Shown piece by piece: positions 46,593 to 55,491 of a stretch of 58,034 nt of DNA. Each line of letters starts with the position of its first letter. The first letter of the stretch is position 1. The stretch comes from Fuerstiella sp. (GTDB taxonomy: Bacteria; Planctomycetota; Planctomycetia; Planctomycetales; Planctomycetaceae). The stretch is from the NCBI GenBank assembly GCA_029247265.1, contig JAQWLN010000044.1, positions 1-58,034 of the forward strand, in the 5' to 3' direction. The notes under the pieces were generated by a model. That model did no database searches. It was given only the letters and a program-made list of their open reading frames with translations, and was not told where the DNA came from. The translations under genes were made by a program, and so were the position numbers.

Positions 46593-49500
46593 CTACTTTG
46601 GCGGTATCAGGCGAATCGTTCGCAGGTCAATCAACGATGACGACGGTTCTTGCGGCGCTGTGACAACAAGCTGGCGTCGACCACGTCCCAGGTCAATGCT
46701 GCCGGCGGACCAGGTTCTGTAGTCATCCCACGTGCCTGTGCCGGGGACGCGGGCGGTCAGCAGGCGTGTTCCGGTGGACAACTTCAATGGGTTGCCAGCT
46801 GTGGCATTGTCACAGGCGTATTCGATTTCGACTGTCCAGTGTCCGGATTTCGGAGAATTGATGTTCCATACCGCGTAGTCACTGGTCGACGACCAGTAAC
46901 CGAGATTCCCATACCTGTTTTCAAAGACCAGGCTGGGGCCGTAGATCTCAGCCGTCGAGGCTGACAGGGTTAGTGTTCCGTCCGTGTCGGCGGTAACCAG
47001 TTGAGGTTCGTTGCCTTCGAACCGTTTCCATTTCACGCCTGAGGACTGTACGAATGCAATCACGTTTACCAGATCCTGAGGCGTCAGGTCCTTTTCCAGT
47101 CCTTCCGGCATCAGTGATCGATTGGAGCAAGTCAATTCCTCGAGTTTGTTTCTAAGCAGAACATGCTCCTTGCCGTCTGTGCCCATCAGGGTCACATTGT
47201 TTCCTGTTTCGCTCAGCAACATGCCACTGAATGTCAGTCCTTCGGTACTGACGGCAGTGTAGCTGAGGAACTTTGTTTCTACGGCTTTGTTCGGATCAAG
47301 GATCGCCGTCAGCATTGCACTGGTCGAACGATTCTTCAACGCGGCAAGATCTGCACCGATCGCTTTGCCGGTATTCTGCAGTCGATGACATGTGGCACAG
47401 CGTTTTTCGAAGACAATTCTGCCGCTCATTTTGTCCCCGGCCAGGCTGACAATCTGTTCCTGATAGTCATCAACGACAGCGGAACGTGCTGTCGATGTAA
47501 TGGTTCCCAGAACTTCCCCTGCAAGTGATCTCAGACTCTCATCACGGTGATTGAGCAGTCGCTCACGAGACGAGGCATCGATGTCACTTGCCGCCAGTTT
47601 CTGCACAGCAACGGCAGTCAGCAGCAACCGGGTTCGTGATGAACTCTGGAGCAGCTGTTCCACAATCGATGATCGCACTGCAGGGGTGATGCTGCTCCAT
47701 CGATCGAACAGCGCACCTGTGGTGTCAGGCGACGTATGCACCACGGCAGTAGCGGCAGCCTGTTGCACAGCGATGGGCGAACCGGGACTGAGCAGTTCGA
47801 CAAGCTGTTCGGAGGTTTCGGGCTTCGGCGTTCCAGCCAATGTCATGAACTGCAGAGCAGACACGCGAATATCAGCGGATGTTTGGGAGTTGACAGCGAC
47901 TGCCGGGGCGCTGGATTTCGCATGAGAAATTGCTGCGACAATCTCTGCGTCGTTTTTCAGGGCCGAGTCTATTTCTTTGTGCTGCCGTATACTGCGAAGA
48001 ACCTGAGTTGCCGAATCCCAGACGCTTGATTCCGGTCGTGCAGATGAATTCAGCTGTCGCAGCATGCCGAGTACCGGTTGCCGCAGGGCACTGATTTTCT
48101 TCATTGCTGCAGCCTGACTGATGAGTTGAACGACTGTTCTGTCCGGAATGCTACCGCCGGAAACTGCCTGCTGCAAAACGTTGCCAATACTATCGGGCGT
48201 CAGCGATACCATGACTGCGTTGACAATATGGATTGCCCCTGCATCCTGTCTCAAAAGTGTCGCCAGAGCACCTGCGGCGTCGCGGTGTCGTGACGCACGC
48301 AAAGAGAATGCCAACTGCCGCCGTACAGCGGGCGACGGATCGTTGACCAGCTGCAGGACTTCCTCGGGCGGTCGAGAGTCACCGTGCAGCAGCAGCGATT
48401 CCAGTAACCTTAAGGCGTGTCGTCGTACTTCCGGATGTTGGTCGTTTAACGCGGCTTTAAGCTGACTGGTCCTCGTGGCGCTGTCTGTTGCGTTGGCGTT
48501 CCGGGACGCATAGAGCGATTGCACTCGCACCGCCGGGGACGAGTGCATTCGAGTGAAGTTTGCCAGGCGTTCGGAAGGCACAGCGTCGCGATGCTGCAGA
48601 ATTCGTTGAGCCGTGTCTCGCCACCAGCCATTGGGGCTGGAAATACGCTCGGCCAGATCGTCCAGGGCGGTGCCTTTCCATGACGTGGCGAACCAACTGC
48701 GGAGCTCCGGCTGTGGTTCCGCTCGTTGTGGCGCCTGGGAGTTAGTCTTGTCCGTGCTGGCCGTCGGCGAACAGCATTGCCCTGACGGAACCAGTCGGTA
48801 GATGCGGCCCCTGTGACTGCCCGCCTGCAGATTTAGTTTGCGTTGATACTCGGCCGGAATCCAGGTGGGGTGTTCAATGACCTGTCGATACATATCCGCA
48901 ATGTAAATGGCGCCATCCGGGCCCGTGCGCACCATAACCGGGCGAGTCCAGTTGTCGCTGCTGGCGAAGAATTCCGATTCGTTTTCGTCGTCTACCCGAC
49001 GCCCTCTGAAAGTGACACCGTCGCGTTTCATAATCAACCGTGAAACAAGGTTGTGAACCGGCTCGCACGTGAACGCATTGCCGTAGAATTCTTCTCCCAG
49101 CAACGTATCGCGGTAAATAGAAGTGCTGCACGCAGATGTGAACCGATTCGCCTTATTAAAGTCGTTAAACCGCGCCATCGTTTTACTGGTGGGGAAAATT
49201 GGTGCTGCTCCTGGAACGGCAGAGACTTCTGCCCTTGTCGTTGAGATCGCAGCATGAGGGTTGTGCTGCAGGTAGCGTTCTTCCAGTACATAGTGCCAGA
49301 TCGGGTTGGAATTGTTGTTGCCGAACCAGTTGCCGAAATCGTCCCGTTCACGTCCGAACTGTGTCTGGCCGCTGACCGTCTCAATCAGCCCGATGTCCGG
49401 ATCGATCCGGACATCACGTCCGCCGATGCCTGTTCTGGAAACACCATTTGCAACAGACGCACCGCTTTCATTCAGTGAACTTACGACGCTGATTTCGCCA

Positions 49501-52500
49501 CCGCTATCGCCGTTGGCCAGATACAGCAAGCCATCCATTCCCCATCGCAATCCGTTGACGCGGTGTTGCTGGTTCCCTTCAGTGAAACCGGTGAACAGTA
49601 CCTGACGACGGTCGGCAACCAAATCACCATCTGTGTCCTCGGCAAATACGATGTCCGGAGCGGCCGTAATGACGACGCCATTTCGCCACATCGCGATGCC
49701 GTTGGGGAAGGGCAGGCCGTCCAGAAACGTTGTCGCCTTGTCGTAGCGACCGTCGTTGTCTGTGTCTTCCAGCACTCGTACCCGTCCGCCGCCCCTATTG
49801 CCGGAGTCGTTGGCAGTGAGTGGCTGGATGTCCCTTCCATTTGGGTAGTCACCCATTTCGACGACCCATAATCTGCCCTGGACATCCCAGTCAAACGCGA
49901 CGGGGTCCCGGATCAGCGGTTCGGCGGCGACCAGTTCGACTCGCAGGTTAGGTCTTGTCGTGATACTCGCCAGCGATTGCTCAGGATTCCTGGGGCCCGG
50001 GAATCCTGCTCGCAATGCATCGGAATAGAACGTATGTGGCAGCAGCTTCTGCACTGTGTCGCAGATGATGTCTTCGGCTTCGGGTGCCAGGCGAGTCGGG
50101 TGACCGTAATAAACCATCGACCGATCGGCTTCGTAACCGCCTTCTCGCAGAATTCGCTTTGACGCAATGTAGCAGGGGACATCATTGCTGTAGGCATTCG
50201 TCCACAATCTGTCGCTGTCCAGCATTTCATTCAGCCGAATGGAGTAATCCACGACGACTTCTCCACCAAGAAATACCATTGCCAGTTCTTCACCAAAACA
50301 CCACGTCTGCACGGGATAATGTGGAACTGACGTGGGAATGGATTTGCCGTCCTCCAGCAGCCTTAGAAACTGCCGGGCATGGGCGCCGGTGTGGCCCGGT
50401 TCTTTTGCTCGCTGTTCCCATTCCTGCAGCGACGGCAACGGTCCCAGTGGCAGATCGACGCGGGCCATGTTACACAGAATGCGTGGGTTGATTGGTCGAA
50501 TTTGCCCCGTCCGCTGGCGAGGGTCGGTAGCATCAAGCAGTCTTTTTACCTCATCGGCGACAGCCCGACCGTGCTGCCTCGCCATATCGTGAGTTCCTCG
50601 TGGGGTCGGATTCGCGTCAGCGCCGCAGCCGATCGCAATCAGAGCTATGGCTCCCGTGTTGTCAGTTTCGATCATATCCGCCGCAAAACCCGGCCAGTCG
50701 CCGCTGATCTGATTAAACTGACCTGTCTCCGTCGTAGCGTGACAGGCGTAGTTCGCCAGCACGGCAATCAGCTTTCCGTCGACATCGTGTGCCGCAAGAA
50801 TCGGAAACTCGTGATCGACCGGGCCGTCAGGTGTTTCGCCAAATCCCGTCCACCGTCCGCCCACAAGAGTTCGGCGGTTGATTGCGAAATCCACTTTGCC
50901 CCGAGTTGATGACAGCTTTCCGGGCCGGCGCGAGCCAATAGCGCTGTCGATGACATTCACCAGGTTTCCGGTCAGATCTGTTTCGTATTGCTTGAGATGG
51001 GCTGCCTCTTCGCTGGGAAGATCTGTCAGGATATTCGGTGCGAAACCTCGCAGCCAGGGCCCCGAGTGCGTGTGTGTTGAGCACACGGCAAGACGTTCGC
51101 GACTGATTCCGTGCTTCGCTGCAACTTTTGTAAATACAGCTTCCGTGACAGCAGCCGGGACTCCACAGTTGTCGACTGTTACCAGGACTGTGAGTGCTCG
51201 ATCAGCTTCACCGCCAATCGCCAATGCTCGAGCATGAATTCTGACAGCGACTGCTTCTGATTCGGTTGCACGGTTTCCGTAACCCGTAAGTCGGACCGGG
51301 TAGTCGGGCGTGATGTCGACAACGGCCGCTCCGATCGGCACTGGTGGTAATGCAGACACAGATTCACGTCGATCATGTTCAGCCTGCAGGTCGTCGATGG
51401 ATACCTGTTGCATCAGATTCGGCAAATGAGCTGTGTCTTCATTTTGCCAGCAGAGTTGGCCTTCGTGAATGAAGACTCCGTTGTGCGAACCGTCGGGGCG
51501 GCGCAGTGGCAGAAGTCCTGAGTGCTTTCCCTGCTGCACAGTCTCAAGTACAGATTCTGGAAGTGACCTAAGTCCGGGGGTCTCGCGCCGGATAGCGGCG
51601 TGACTTATTGCCGCCTGCTGCGTCGCGCCTGCGTGGCGGAGCTCCTTCCTGTCACATAATGATCTGTTCAGCCTTTCTGCCGCTTCCCGAAACGACAGGA
51701 ACTTCACCTTTGAACCGTGCTTTTCGATGGCATGGTCGATCAGCTCCACGACCTGTTCTGACGTAATCCAGCCATGAGGATGGAAGACCAGATTGAAAAC
51801 GCCCTGTTTGTGAACGGTGATGTCCAGTGCGGCTTTCCAGTCTTCCACGGTGACCGGGTTGTTGACTCCATGCAGGTGCTGAGCTGACCAGTCGCTGGGT
51901 GCAACACAGGGGAACTGCCAGCATGTGTTGTTAATGACGTACGGATACGGATAGTTCCTGATGTAGTTGACAAAGTTGTCGTGCAGCGTGTTACCTCGTT
52001 TCAGACCCCGCACTTTGTACTTCCAGAATCGCTCGTTGCCGTCTTTGTCCAGCACAAGTTCGCGAGGAATCGATGGATCGTCAGATGTGAAAAAATTCAT
52101 CACTGAAGAATCGATCTGCAGGAAATGGCCCGCAGCTGTCGTTCCGTTGAAAATTTCAGAATAGAACCGAGGACTGACGGTATTCAGCGAATCGCAACAT
52201 GGAGTGCGGAAGGCGACGGGGTCATTGCCGGGAATCGCGCTGAGCAGATCGATGCAGCGGTCGTAAGTCGATTTGGCTTTGTCGAAGTCGCCTTCCTGTA
52301 ACAGCGGGCAGGGATGATCGACAGTGTGGACCTCGATGCTGAGCCCTTCTTCCAGCCAGCTTTGCAGCTGTGGATCGTCGGGCTTCACATCGCACGTCAT
52401 GATGCTGACAGGAGCTCGGCCGTCGATCTGTTTCAGGCGATTCAAAATGGGACGCAGGTACTGTTCGTGCTTTGCCGTGTCACGCATGTCGTCGATGGCC

Positions 52501-52679
52501 AGCACAACCACCGCCTCAACGCCCTCTTCACCCACCCACCGAGGCGTAATCAGCTTTGGAAAGTTCTGATCGGGATACCATGGATTGCATTCATCCAGAT
52601 TGGCAAGCCGATCATCGGCACCCGCACAAAGGGCTGCGGAAATTACGAAAATCGATGGGACGATGCAAAACCATCGCAT
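46593..52679 (-). CDS. 2028-residue secreted fusion: deacetylase, ceramidase-like, PVC propeller, HEAT, cytochrome c
   Basis: An exported giant protein (signal peptide MRWFCIVPSIFVISAALCAG). Domains in order: polysaccharide-deacetylase-like (about 45-340; motif 1 AIDDMRD with Asp63/Asp64, motif 2 HTVDH at 118-122, motif 3 FRTPCCDS). Next comes a neutral/alkaline ceramidase-like domain (about 448-890; IGAAVVDITPDYPVRLTGYG, STHTHSGP, GCGADANP). A PVC-type membrane-bound dehydrogenase propeller follows (about 905-1300; AFDWDVQGRLWVVEMGDYPNG, GLPFPNGIAMWRNG). HEAT repeats (about 1370-1750), a heme domain with CATCHRL (1761-1765), and a C-terminal beta-rich, possibly carbohydrate-binding segment (about 1910-2028) complete it. 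PVC propeller, HEAT and heme-c together is a known planctomycete layout. The two hydrolase domains ahead of it are unusual. The frame is uninterrupted with uniform codon use, so it is one gene. Confidence 0.88.
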   Translation of the reverse strand: MRWFCIVPSIFVISAALCAGADDRLANLDECNPWYPDQNFPKLITPRWVGEEGVEAVVVLAIDDMRDTAKHEQYLRPILNRLKQIDGRAPVSIMTCDVKPDDPQLQSWLEEGLSIEVHTVDHPCPLLQEGDFDKAKSTYDRCIDLLSAIPGNDPVAFRTPCCDSLNTVSPRFYSEIFNGTTAAGHFLQIDSSVMNFFTSDDPSIPRELVLDKDGNERFWKYKVRGLKRGNTLHDNFVNYIRNYPYPYVINNTCWQFPCVAPSDWSAQHLHGVNNPVTVEDWKAALDITVHKQGVFNLVFHPHGWITSEQVVELIDHAIEKHGSKVKFLSFREAAERLNRSLCDRKELRHAGATQQAAISHAAIRRETPGLRSLPESVLETVQQGKHSGLLPLRRPDGSHNGVFIHEGQLCWQNEDTAHLPNLMQQVSIDDLQAEHDRRESVSALPPVPIGAAVVDITPDYPVRLTGYGNRATESEAVAVRIHARALAIGGEADRALTVLVTVDNCGVPAAVTEAVFTKVAAKHGISRERLAVCSTHTHSGPWLRGFAPNILTDLPSEEAAHLKQYETDLTGNLVNVIDSAIGSRRPGKLSSTRGKVDFAINRRTLVGGRWTGFGETPDGPVDHEFPILAAHDVDGKLIAVLANYACHATTETGQFNQISGDWPGFAADMIETDNTGAIALIAIGCGADANPTPRGTHDMARQHGRAVADEVKRLLDATDPRQRTGQIRPINPRILCNMARVDLPLGPLPSLQEWEQRAKEPGHTGAHARQFLRLLEDGKSIPTSVPHYPVQTWCFGEELAMVFLGGEVVVDYSIRLNEMLDSDRLWTNAYSNDVPCYIASKRILREGGYEADRSMVYYGHPTRLAPEAEDIICDTVQKLLPHTFYSDALRAGFPGPRNPEQSLASITTRPNLRVELVAAEPLIRDPVAFDWDVQGRLWVVEMGDYPNGRDIQPLTANDSGNRGGGRVRVLEDTDNDGRYDKATTFLDGLPFPNGIAMWRNGVVITAAPDIVFAEDTDGDLVADRRQVLFTGFTEGNQQHRVNGLRWGMDGLLYLANGDSGGEISVVSSLNESGASVANGVSRTGIGGRDVRIDPDIGLIETVSGQTQFGRERDDFGNWFGNNNSNPIWHYVLEERYLQHNPHAAISTTRAEVSAVPGAAPIFPTSKTMARFNDFNKANRFTSACSTSIYRDTLLGEEFYGNAFTCEPVHNLVSRLIMKRDGVTFRGRRVDDENESEFFASSDNWTRPVMVRTGPDGAIYIADMYRQVIEHPTWIPAEYQRKLNLQAGSHRGRIYRLVPSGQCCSPTASTDKTNSQAPQRAEPQPELRSWFATSWKGTALDDLAERISSPNGWWRDTAQRILQHRDAVPSERLANFTRMHSSPAVRVQSLYASRNANATDSATRTSQLKAALNDQHPEVRRHALRLLESLLLHGDSRPPEEVLQLVNDPSPAVRRQLAFSLRASRHRDAAGALATLLRQDAGAIHIVNAVMVSLTPDSIGNVLQQAVSGGSIPDRTVVQLISQAAAMKKISALRQPVLGMLRQLNSSARPESSVWDSATQVLRSIRQHKEIDSALKNDAEIVAAISHAKSSAPAVAVNSQTSADIRVSALQFMTLAGTPKPETSEQLVELLSPGSPIAVQQAAATAVVHTSPDTTGALFDRWSSITPAVRSSIVEQLLQSSSRTRLLLTAVAVQKLAASDIDASSRERLLNHRDESLRSLAGEVLGTITSTARSAVVDDYQEQIVSLAGDKMSGRIVFEKRCATCHRLQNTGKAIGADLAALKNRSTSAMLTAILDPNKAVETKFLSYTAVSTEGLTFSGMLLSETGNNVTLMGTDGKEHVLLRNKLEELTCSNRSLMPEGLEKDLTPQDLVNVIAFVQSSGVKWKRFEGNEPQLVTADTDGTLTLSASTAEIYGPSLVFENRYGNLGYWSSTSDYAVWNINSPKSGHWTVEIEYACDNATAGNPLKLSTGTRLLTARVPGTGTWDDYRTWSAGSIDLGRGRRQLVVTAPQEPSSSLIDLRTIRLIPPK

Positions 52680-52758: not shown

Positions 52759-55491
52759 TCAGTCAGTGGCGTCCGGCAGAGTCTCGACCAGCGGTGATCG
52801 CAATGTCACCGGGAATCCGCTCAGCGACGCCGAGTCGACCCCCGGAACCCTTCCGTCAGGATCGAGTGCCATACCCGCGGTACCGGAATAGAATTGTGCT
52901 CGACTCAGTGCAAACGAATGCGTGTCGAAGTCGCTGAGATCGGCACGCGAAAAATTCTCCAGCAGGTCCGGGTCGTTCCAGACATCCGAGCCGAATTCAA
53001 CAGCCTCTTCTTCCTGTTCGTCCGCTCCCTGGCTCCAGGTCTTGTTCCACTCATTGAGTGACATGAGAGTCGATTCCAGATCGAGGCTGCCACGGCTGGC
53101 ACTTTCGAGTTTCCAGTAGACGTTGTACTGGTGGAACAGATTCGCGTTGCCATGCCACGTCAGTAAGTCCGGCAGGTCGTCCAGGTAGGCGTTGCCCTGT
53201 GAGTGAATCAGGACGCCGTCTTCTGTCAGCGAGGCAAAAACACATGAGTAACTGTTCACAGAAAGCTTCGACAGTTCTCGCTGTGGATCCCGGCCGTCGA
53301 AGACATCGCTGTCTGCCATGTGTACGACAGGTTTGGAAAGGATTGTGGTGGTGTGATCGAGCGTGACGTCCAGGTGTCCGACTTGCTCCGGCATTTGTGA
53401 ACCGATATTGCTGATCAGCGAGCCATCCAGCGCGAAAGCGCACTGTTCCGCTCGCATTCGTCCCGTTGGCTGACCGTCAACCAGTACAACGTCTGTGCCG
53501 CCACGAACGGCGACTTCGTATAGCTGTATGTCAACCAGGTTGTCTGAATCTTCGTTAACAGGCGAGTCTGAAAGTCGAAAGACAGTGGTCGGCCGCCGTG
53601 ACGAATTCCGAACTTCGATGGTGCAGTCGCGCAGTTCGATTCTGTTGGGACCGTTACACTCGAACAACACCCATTCCTCAGACACGGCGTCGTTGCCGAC
53701 AATGACTCGGAGGTCCACACCAAGCAAACGCAGGTTCAGGTTATTCGTGAGGTTAAACAGTCGTCCCGGAACGGATGACTGTTCGTCGTCACCTCGAAAT
53801 TCCAGAACGGGGCGGAACCCTGTTGCCGCCCGAAGAGTAATGTTCTCGCCATTTGTACGCCCGAGTTTCGGCAGGGATGGCACCTGTTGAACGCCGTCAA
53901 ACTGCAGCAGAATCTCGTCCCCCGACTTCGCGTCAGCCAGCGCACTGCTGAGTGAATTGTGGTATTTCGGTTGACCAAGCGCAGGCTCAAGGCGAATACG
54001 TCGTTGCTCGATAGGCGGAGTGTCTATGTTTTGAGGTATTGGAACACCTGTTTCCTCGGACCCCGCAACCGGAAAGAAGGGGCCGATTGGCATGGACCCG
54101 GGCAGCGGAACCGGGTTGGAGTTTCGAGTCTGCTCCAGCGTCTGATTCAGCTCTGCAGTACCGATACTCAGTGTGAACGCACCTTGTGTTTGCGTCGAAT
54201 CTTCTCTGGCTGAATCAACTGCTGCACCCATGTCCAAAGAATCGGCGGCGCTAAGTTGGATCGCATACGAATCTTTGAGCCAGTCTGGTGGAGGCTCTTG
54301 TTTTCCCGGCAGAAAATGAAAAATCAGCGCTGTCAGACAGATGGCCAGCACGGCGCCGGACAGAAAAATGGCCCCTGATAACTCGCGAATCCGGCGAACG
54401 GGAATTCTGCGCCATACGACTCCTTCTGCAGGAACACTTCGCAAACCCATTTGTGTTGCAAGGCTGATCAGGTCCGTTAGCAGTTGACCGGGATCCTGGT
54501 ATCGCTGTTCGGCATCGGTGTTCATCATGTTCTGCACGATGGCAGCCAGTTCGACCGGAACGTCATTTGCCACCAGCCGCGGATCCGGAGGCGTTTTTCC
54601 CTGGTGATCCAGCAGCTTCTGCAGGGCGGTTCCTTCCGGATACGGCGGCCTGCCGGTAAGCATGTGATACACCGTGCATCCCAGCGAATAAATATCGCTG
54701 CGGATATCGGCCATTCGCGGATCGCGCGCCTGTTCTGGGGCGATATAGTCGAACGTGCCGAGAGTTGTGCCGGCAACCGTAATATCGCCGATCGAATCCG
54801 TTGTGTCGCGTCGCGCCAGTCCCAGGTCGACGACCTTGATACGACCGGACTGCGTGATGATGATGTTGGATGGTTTGATATCGCGATGGATAATTCCCGC
54901 CGCCGCGATGTGGTTCAACGCCAGCGTTGCCTGTATGGCGTAGTTGACTGTCTCCGCCGGACTCAGTTTACCGCGCTGCTGTATCGCTTCCTTAATGTTG
55001 ATGCCGTCTGCATATTCGTAGGCGATGTAATGAATGCCGTCCTGTTCGCCTGCAAAAAAGATGCGAGCCACATTGTCATGATTCAGTTGGGCGCACGATC
55101 GGGCCTCGTTACGAAACCTGGCAACCAGCGATGTATCGGCGGCTATTCCCGGGTGCAGTACCTTCAAAGCGACAAAGCGGGATAGTTCAAGGTCGACGGC
55201 CCGAAAGACGGCGCCCATGCCCCCGGAGCCAATTCGCTCTTCCACATCAAAATGGCCGATGCGAAGTCCACGCTCCCGATTCTGCTCATCCGTCTGTGCA
55301 CCAAAGAGACGGTCCCGGATTTCCTGCGCGGACGCTGAATAGGTGACCTCCGATGGTGCACTGTTGTCGAGGTCCGTACCCGTGCTGACAACCGTATTCT
55401 GGTCGTCGGCAACGAGCGGCCGATCCAGCAGAGGCACTTCGCCCTCTGTGGGTTTCGTCGGGTCGAGTTCAGCACTTGACTGCTGAGTCAT
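52759..55491 (-). CDS. Membrane Ser/Thr protein kinase with large extracellular region
   Basis: A 910-residue PknB-like kinase. An unstructured N-terminus precedes the kinase domain (80-345): IGSGGMGAV, Lys110 in FVALKVL, HRDIKPSN with Asp204, VDLGLAR and APEQAR. A single membrane helix (373-394, FLSGAVLAICLTALIFHF) leads to about 510 residues outside the membrane. These are not PASTA repeats: they look like a right-handed beta-helix (ITLRAATGFRPVLEFRG, IELRDCTIEVRNSSR, HLDVTLDHTTTILSKPVVHM). It may sense cell-wall or polymer ligands. The neighbouring fusion gene is on the same strand, 80 bases after, and could share regulation. Confidence 0.9.
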   Translation of the reverse strand: MTQQSSAELDPTKPTEGEVPLLDRPLVADDQNTVVSTGTDLDNSAPSEVTYSASAQEIRDRLFGAQTDEQNRERGLRIGHFDVEERIGSGGMGAVFRAVDLELSRFVALKVLHPGIAADTSLVARFRNEARSCAQLNHDNVARIFFAGEQDGIHYIAYEYADGINIKEAIQQRGKLSPAETVNYAIQATLALNHIAAAGIIHRDIKPSNIIITQSGRIKVVDLGLARRDTTDSIGDITVAGTTLGTFDYIAPEQARDPRMADIRSDIYSLGCTVYHMLTGRPPYPEGTALQKLLDHQGKTPPDPRLVANDVPVELAAIVQNMMNTDAEQRYQDPGQLLTDLISLATQMGLRSVPAEGVVWRRIPVRRIRELSGAIFLSGAVLAICLTALIFHFLPGKQEPPPDWLKDSYAIQLSAADSLDMGAAVDSAREDSTQTQGAFTLSIGTAELNQTLEQTRNSNPVPLPGSMPIGPFFPVAGSEETGVPIPQNIDTPPIEQRRIRLEPALGQPKYHNSLSSALADAKSGDEILLQFDGVQQVPSLPKLGRTNGENITLRAATGFRPVLEFRGDDEQSSVPGRLFNLTNNLNLRLLGVDLRVIVGNDAVSEEWVLFECNGPNRIELRDCTIEVRNSSRRPTTVFRLSDSPVNEDSDNLVDIQLYEVAVRGGTDVVLVDGQPTGRMRAEQCAFALDGSLISNIGSQMPEQVGHLDVTLDHTTTILSKPVVHMADSDVFDGRDPQRELSKLSVNSYSCVFASLTEDGVLIHSQGNAYLDDLPDLLTWHGNANLFHQYNVYWKLESASRGSLDLESTLMSLNEWNKTWSQGADEQEEEAVEFGSDVWNDPDLLENFSRADLSDFDTHSFALSRAQFYSGTAGMALDPDGRVPGVDSASLSGFPVTLRSPLVETLPDATD

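Follow-up and report, generated by a model that had tools for sequence, protein, structure and literature searches.

The window analysed here, a 58,034-nucleotide stretch from the marine planctomycete Fuerstiella sp. (contig JAQWLN010000044.1, positions 1 to 58,034), carries on its reverse strand, at 46593-52679, a single open reading frame that starts with ATG and encodes 2028 amino acids (aa) with no internal stops. The encoded protein joins, in this order, a CE4-type deacetylase, a relic FG-GAP linker, a ceramidase-like domain, a DUF7133 propeller, HEAT repeats, a CxxCH cytochrome c and a tail that weakly resembles the carbohydrate-binding module (CBM) family CBM6; it is apparently exported, since its first 20 residues resemble a signal peptide. 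Each domain named in an initial annotation of this DNA was recovered in the same order with Pfam and NCBIfam profiles and a predicted model of residues 20-885. We conclude that this triple fusion of deacetylase, ceramidase-like domain and propeller cytochrome is a real, conserved variant of a common, poorly understood protein family and that it is previously undescribed in the literature searched, which left out subscription papers and preprints and in which no account of the layout was found.

The conservation of the layout carries this conclusion. Seven of the eight genomes of the genus hold the triple fusion (the window and loci L031-L036), each in one frame, and the hydrolase domains of the window protein are 53-90% identical to those of its genus relatives. 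One of these genomes, G005, is complete in one 8.9 Mb contig; the source genome, G000, is an assembly of 280 contigs (6.5 Mb, 90.5% complete). The eighth genome, G003, gave no deacetylase match at E 1e-20, and L106, also labelled Fuerstiella, has a form without the ceramidase-like domain. Because the layout is kept in seven of eight genus genomes, at these identities and including the single-contig G005, there is virtually no chance that the frame is an assembly join or a read-through of neighboring genes, and the reading of one uninterrupted frame is borne out both by the open reading frame itself and by the relatives.

To place the fusion more widely, we took 237 named loci that carry this deacetylase and surveyed the 80 best, a choice that makes the counts lean to near relatives. 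Both hydrolases occur in 17 of the 80, 13 with the whole triple layout and 4 cut by a contig or sequence end. The commonest form (42/80) is deacetylase-propeller-cytochrome-tail without the ceramidase-like part; 1 locus lacks the tail only, 9 have deacetylase and propeller only, and 11 have the deacetylase only. Seven of these 11 (L087, L111, L117, L119, L124, L128, L129) end at a stop within the available sequence and the other four are cut. The initial annotation had held that separate genes for hydrolases and propeller, with the frame proving to be an assembly join, would speak against the fusion; separate genes do exist, as the seven deacetylases that stop without a propeller indicate, but a join was not found. 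At L111 the propeller-cytochrome forms a separate nearby frame, and at L059/L046 the propeller is split over two frames. The deacetylase itself was found in 84 of 170 family genomes, and hence is absent from 86, and in 16 of 294 genomes of the phylum, mostly as one copy per genome among the genomes listed. The initial annotation knew of no described system with this layout; the fusion is less isolated than that suggests, since the family commonly has proteins that join two of its parts, either as deacetylase-FG-GAP-propeller-cytochrome or as ceramidase-like-propeller-cytochrome. Relatives of the protein in G037, G046 and G039 and at L046/L059 contain in-frame stops or are split over frames, whether through decay, sequencing error or a true split of the gene.

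A tree of 42 ceramidase-like domains gathers all 17 rows of triple fusions, two of which are the window protein and its copy L001, in one clade (support 100/99), nearest to a deacetylase-free protein of G010 (93/91). A midpoint-rooted tree of 90 propellers places the triple rows with 4 deacetylase-propeller rows in a group of 21 (98), apart from most ceramidase-propeller rows; one step further out it is joined by L008 and a ceramidase group of nine rows (98). In that tree the triple rows need two changes, with the protein of G007 (L004) grouping with the ceramidase-free L041 (support 85). The single origin that we assign to the triple fusion from these phylogenies therefore rests on the ceramidase tree (100/99) and not on the propeller tree. 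The simplest account would be that the ceramidase-like domain was inserted once between the FG-GAP module and the propeller of an older two-part protein, possibly with later loss. The linker of the window protein has no Pfam match, and at the same place the relatives L033, L035, L038, L041, L044 and L047 have 130-330 residues with FG-GAP repeats, of which the window linker retains the last 50 residues of the module (NGxFVHxxxLCWQNEDTA). L033 and L035 still have the module, which is eroded in the window protein and in L031, L032, L034 and L036.

The first hydrolase is assigned to the CE4 type by profile, motif and fold, with its catalysis predicted. Polysacc_deac_1 of Pfam lies narrowly over its cut-off at residues 55-164 (24.3 bits, cut-off 23.1), and the CE4 residues of the window protein are D63, D64, H118, H122, R158, D263, W264 and H300. 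Of 82 aligned rows, 79 keep D63, D64, H118, H122 and P123 and 80 keep R158, D263, W264 and H300, with gaps in the other 3 and 2 rows; we take the D-H-H metal triad (D64, H118, H122) and the HxxxHP motif to be the CE4/NodB signature. A profile search of the PDB returned PdaC (6h8l, E 2.9e-4) and PgdA (0.022). In a fold search with the model of residues 20-885, the CE4 deacetylase 3rxz (E 3.1e-5) ranked after the ceramidases, and further structural matches of the domain were the insect chitin deacetylase 5znt, PdaC and PgdA.

The second hydrolase belongs to the neutral-ceramidase superfamily, with a changed loop. Ceramidase_alk matches residues 449-676 with 68 bits (cut-off 32.1), although the match spans no more than its N-terminal half (profile positions 3-232 of 509); the PDB profile search found two solved neutral ceramidases (4.5e-19 and 1.2e-17), and four ceramidase chains (2zws, 2zxc and two of 4wgk) head the fold search with the same model (best E 2.3e-21, 2zws). 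All 38 propeller-linked rows have H536, H647, E807 and Y837, which we take to be the zinc ligands. At the serine of the GDVSPN loop, presumably the ceramidase nucleophile, the window protein has N690, and the position is Asn in 37 of the 38 rows and Asp in L053. The stand-alone paralogues L133 and L136 of the source genome also have Asn in this loop, while Ser occupies the position in all six phylum rows with more than 350 bits to the neutral-ceramidase equivalog NF041649, none of which reaches its cut-off. This loop (residues 685-695 of the window protein, P0001) has a predicted local distance difference test score (pLDDT) below 50 in the model, so that the Asn is placed by sequence alignment alone. 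A changed loop beside a kept zinc site therefore suggests a metal-dependent ceramidase relative that is either inactive or has another chemistry. The initial annotation proposed checking whether the catalytic residues of both hydrolases fit active enzymes; those of the CE4 motif and the zinc site do, and the ceramidase serine is replaced.

In the core that follows, DUF7133 matches residues 899-1298 with 522.8 bits and TIGR02604 scores 290.4 bits, over its curated cut-off of 122.2. The propeller model (53 alignment rows, pLDDT 86) has a predicted fold of the pyrroloquinoline quinone (PQQ) sugar dehydrogenase type: Foldseek ranks 1-4 go to PQQ sugar dehydrogenases, one of them putative (2ism, E 4.8e-10; 3a9g; 6jt5, a fungal pyranose dehydrogenase; and 1cq1). 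Local profile alignments with glucose/sorbosone dehydrogenase (GSDH) proteins have probabilities of 48% and 22%, and in the first, at 48% only, H1039 aligns with what we take to be the catalytic His of GSDH (the NH of NHNGG); this column is His in 67 of 67 deacetylase-linked rows. A paralogue in the source genome, L186, exceeds the cut-offs of both DUF7133 (132 bits) and Glucose/Sorbosone dehydrogenase PF07995 (34 bits, cut-off 25). As judged from the model, a dehydrogenase role for the propeller is likely, with PQQ uptake from outside or another cofactor possible. The cytochrome domain scores 21.7 bits with Cytochrom_C (cut-off 21.3) and 110.3 bits with TIGR02603 (cut-off 68.15). All 16 aligned rows have its single CxxCH (CATCH, 1761-1765) and an MPEG at 1857 that is likely to supply the Met ligand of the heme, and this conservation favors a functional heme. 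The tail falls under the cut-off of CBM_6 (18.4 bits, cut-off 28.9) and matches PDB 2w47 at E 0.00095.

The source genome indicates how this core is used elsewhere. It has 33 DUF7133-matched stretches, from which 14 regions were taken, and a Pfam scan of nine long DUF7133 proteins revealed ThuA (L181), ThuA with GDSL (L183), GDSL with PA14 (L184), sulfatase with SGSH_C (L185), ThuA with F5/8C (L186), FG-GAP (L182), NPCBM (L188) and further cytochromes with PA14 (L187) as fusion partners, and none in L189. With sulfatase, GDSL and ThuA partners, and modules of a sugar-binding type, all within one genome, the propeller-HEAT-cytochrome core appears to behave as a chassis for decoration-removing enzymes. 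These fusions also support the earlier suggestion that the deacylation and redox parts serve one substrate. In L185 (L185:2227-7182, G000:C140) the sulfatase with SGSH_C, DUF7133, HEAT and cytochrome c lie in one 1652-aa frame. L037 (L037:4467-10271; G000:C1:30324-34952) is a 1934-aa ceramidase-like-propeller-cytochrome paralogue with Ala at the propeller His position and extra C-terminal HEAT repeats.

We tentatively propose that the fusion is a single-chain periplasmic or secreted glycan enzyme that deacylates a sugar, oxidizes it and passes the electrons to heme c; here we infer the substrate, the step order, the redox activity and the cofactor. The CE4 and zinc ceramidase-like domains would deacylate an amino-sugar or acylated sugar, first at an N- or O-acetyl group and then at a second amide or ester. 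Once bared, the sugar would be bound and oxidized by the propeller, and the two electrons would pass singly through the heme c domain to the cytochromes of the cell, with the C-terminal module holding the glycan and the HEAT stack spacing the parts. Since the hydrolases are fused to the propeller, their substrate should be the propeller substrate as well. Few planctomycete families are as expanded as the DUF7133-type propeller cytochromes, whose roles are nearly undescribed, and two recognizable enzymes and a heme on one chain offer a testable handle on them.

Several observations weigh against an oxidizing glycan enzyme. The non-enzymatic HHIP occupies Foldseek ranks 5-6, followed by more PQQ-type dehydrogenases, and the match to PQQ enzymes is moderate (TM 0.48/0.61). 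The PQQ-binding Arg-Asn pair of GSDH proteins, whose Arg/Asn/Lys residues we assume to bind the cofactor, has no like aligned pair in the propeller, and a global profile alignment of the propeller with GSDH gave only a 35-column edge match. PqqE is not over its cut-off in the source genome, at its 90.5% completeness, and is over it in 1 of 56 relatives. Among the 22 ceramidase-linked rows without deacetylase, 12 lack the propeller His and 10 keep it; it is therefore not essential to the whole family, and some members may no longer have the presumed redox site. No conserved neighbor names a substrate, and none is kept beyond the nearest two genomes. The only published assay of a propeller-HEAT-cytochrome protein that we found, discussed below, is of lactose hydrolysis. 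Plain membership among PQQ dehydrogenases was not accepted: the window protein does not match PF07995 at E 0.1, PqqE has no match over its cut-off in the source genome and the Arg-Asn pair is unaligned. Searched against solved structures, the propeller profile gave no sequence match at E 1.

A broader and somewhat doubtful extension is that the DUF7133-HEAT-cytochrome core constitutes a new class of cytochrome-linked glycan dehydrogenase, using PQQ taken up or another cofactor, and that planctomycetes swap unmasking enzymes on it, among them a deacetylase, a zinc amidase, a sulfatase, a GDSL esterase and ThuA. If so, stripping and oxidation would take place on one chain, and the window protein would be a version with two unmasking steps.

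It is unlikely, by our assessment, that the propeller is instead a glycoside hydrolase, with three catalytic parts trimming one glycan and the heme serving in sensing or structure or being vestigial. E. coli BL21(DE3)pLysS carries its own lacZ. In the passages of the source concerned, Lac161_ORF7, a purified protein of the same TIGR02604-HEAT-cytochrome layout made in that strain, is reported as a beta-galactosidase that hydrolyses lactose with a Km of 1.8 mM, likened to the 2.0 mM of E. coli LacZ (PMC5342196). This assay is what favors a glycosidase. The LacZ-like Km and the lacZ-positive host make carry-over of LacZ possible, however; the fold search matched dehydrogenases and lactonases, not glycosidases, and the invariant CxxCH and MPEG favor a working heme.

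An action of the hydrolases on the envelope of the cell itself (peptidoglycan or lipid A-like amino sugars), with the cytochrome tying it to redox state in a housekeeping or sensing role, seems to us decidedly improbable. The peptidoglycan deacetylases PdaC and PgdA are the nearest solved deacetylase sequences, most genomes listed have one copy, and there are no operon partners, all of which would suit such a role; on the other hand, the CBM-like tail and the fusion of the core to sulfatase, GDSL and ThuA resemble the use of foreign glycans, and the gene is absent from 86 of the 170 family genomes searched.

The sphingolipid substrate put forward in the initial annotation was not supported. 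We consider it very improbable that the ceramidase-like domain deacylates a sphingolipid or other acylated lipid and that the rest oxidizes the freed base or sugar. The invariant zinc-site residues and the fold match to neutral ceramidases fit such an enzyme. A sphingolipid role is doubtful, though, because 37 of 38 rows have Asn, and the other has Asp, in place of the ceramidase serine (from sequence alignment alone), compared with Ser in all six rows above 350 bits to NF041649, and the window protein reaches only 31.1 of the 1200 bits that NF041649 demands; the deacetylase and carbohydrate-type modules point to glycans. Assignment as a sphingolipid amidase was downgraded on Asn690 and the NF041649 score.

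Among known systems, PVC-type CxxCH proteins (TIGR02604/DUF7133-HEAT-TIGR02603) share the whole propeller-HEAT-cytochrome core, with both models over cut-off, but ordinary members have about 1000-1100 aa, and the window protein adds two hydrolases and the CBM-like tail. The planctomycete deacetylase-FG-GAP-DUF7133-HEAT-cytochrome-CBM proteins resemble it in order, tail and deacetylase (about 70% identical), but lack the ceramidase-like domain and keep the FG-GAP module. The ceramidase-like-DUF7133-HEAT-cytochrome proteins (22 rows) share the ceramidase-like domain with its Asn loop, the propeller and the cytochrome, but have no deacetylase and include the 12 without the propeller His. Neutral ceramidases (2zws, 4wgk) share fold and zinc-site residues; the differences are the Ser to Asn change and a ceramidase profile left unmatched towards its C-terminal end. 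Fungal AA12 pyranose dehydrogenase (6jt5, 6i1q), whose propeller fold is among the top matches, is also joined to a cytochrome, with a b-type heme, and a CBM; it differs in its PQQ-binding residues and lacks hydrolases. Lac161_ORF7 is alike by its described layout and is without hydrolase domains in the passages describing it (PMC5342196). Passages of a study on Verrucomicrobia describe planctomycete-type cytochromes with CBMs that have no known function and stand in inverse relation to the density of glycoside hydrolases (PMC5615132). Passages of another study treat DUF1080 in xanthan use and do not mention the triple layout (PMC5673643).

Table 1. Parts of the 2028-aa fusion protein, with positions in the window
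Feature	Residues	Position	Strand	Sequence	Basis
Signal-peptide-like stretch	1-20	52620..52679	-	MRWFCIVPSIFVISAALCAG	By eye from sequence
CE4-type polysaccharide deacetylase (predicted), including signal stretch	1-345	51645..52679	-		Pfam, fold match, profile match
FG-GAP remnant linker	346-445	51345..51644	-	RPDGSHNGVFIHEGQLCWQNEDTAHLP	Alignment with FG-GAP-bearing relatives
Neutral-ceramidase-superfamily (ceramidase-like) domain	446-880	50040..51344	-		Pfam, fold match, residue counts
DUF7133/TIGR02604 beta-propeller	890-1302	48774..50012	-		Profiles and model
HEAT-repeat region	about 1303-1745	47445..48773	-		HEAT_2 32 bits (cut-off 27.7), HEAT 27.2 bits
Cytochrome c domain	1746-1882	47034..47444	-		TIGR02603 110 bits
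C-terminal beta module, weakly CBM6/35-like	1883-2028	46596..47033	-		CBM_6 under cut-off; PDB 2w47

Directly upstream of the fusion gene and on the same strand (window 52759-55491) lies a gene for a Ser/Thr protein kinase of 910 aa that has a long C-terminal part outside the kinase. Only G001 and G002 have the order kinase-fusion-protease in common with the window; G004, G005 and G007 have other neighbors, and the contig of G006 holds the gene alone. In four freshwater relatives (L072, L075, L076 and L116), a same-strand neighbor of about 500 aa lies just downstream of the triple fusion, and that of L072 (12775-14286), the one scanned, matches DMFA2_C, the C-terminal part of the N,N-dimethylformamidase beta subunit, and is possibly another amidase.

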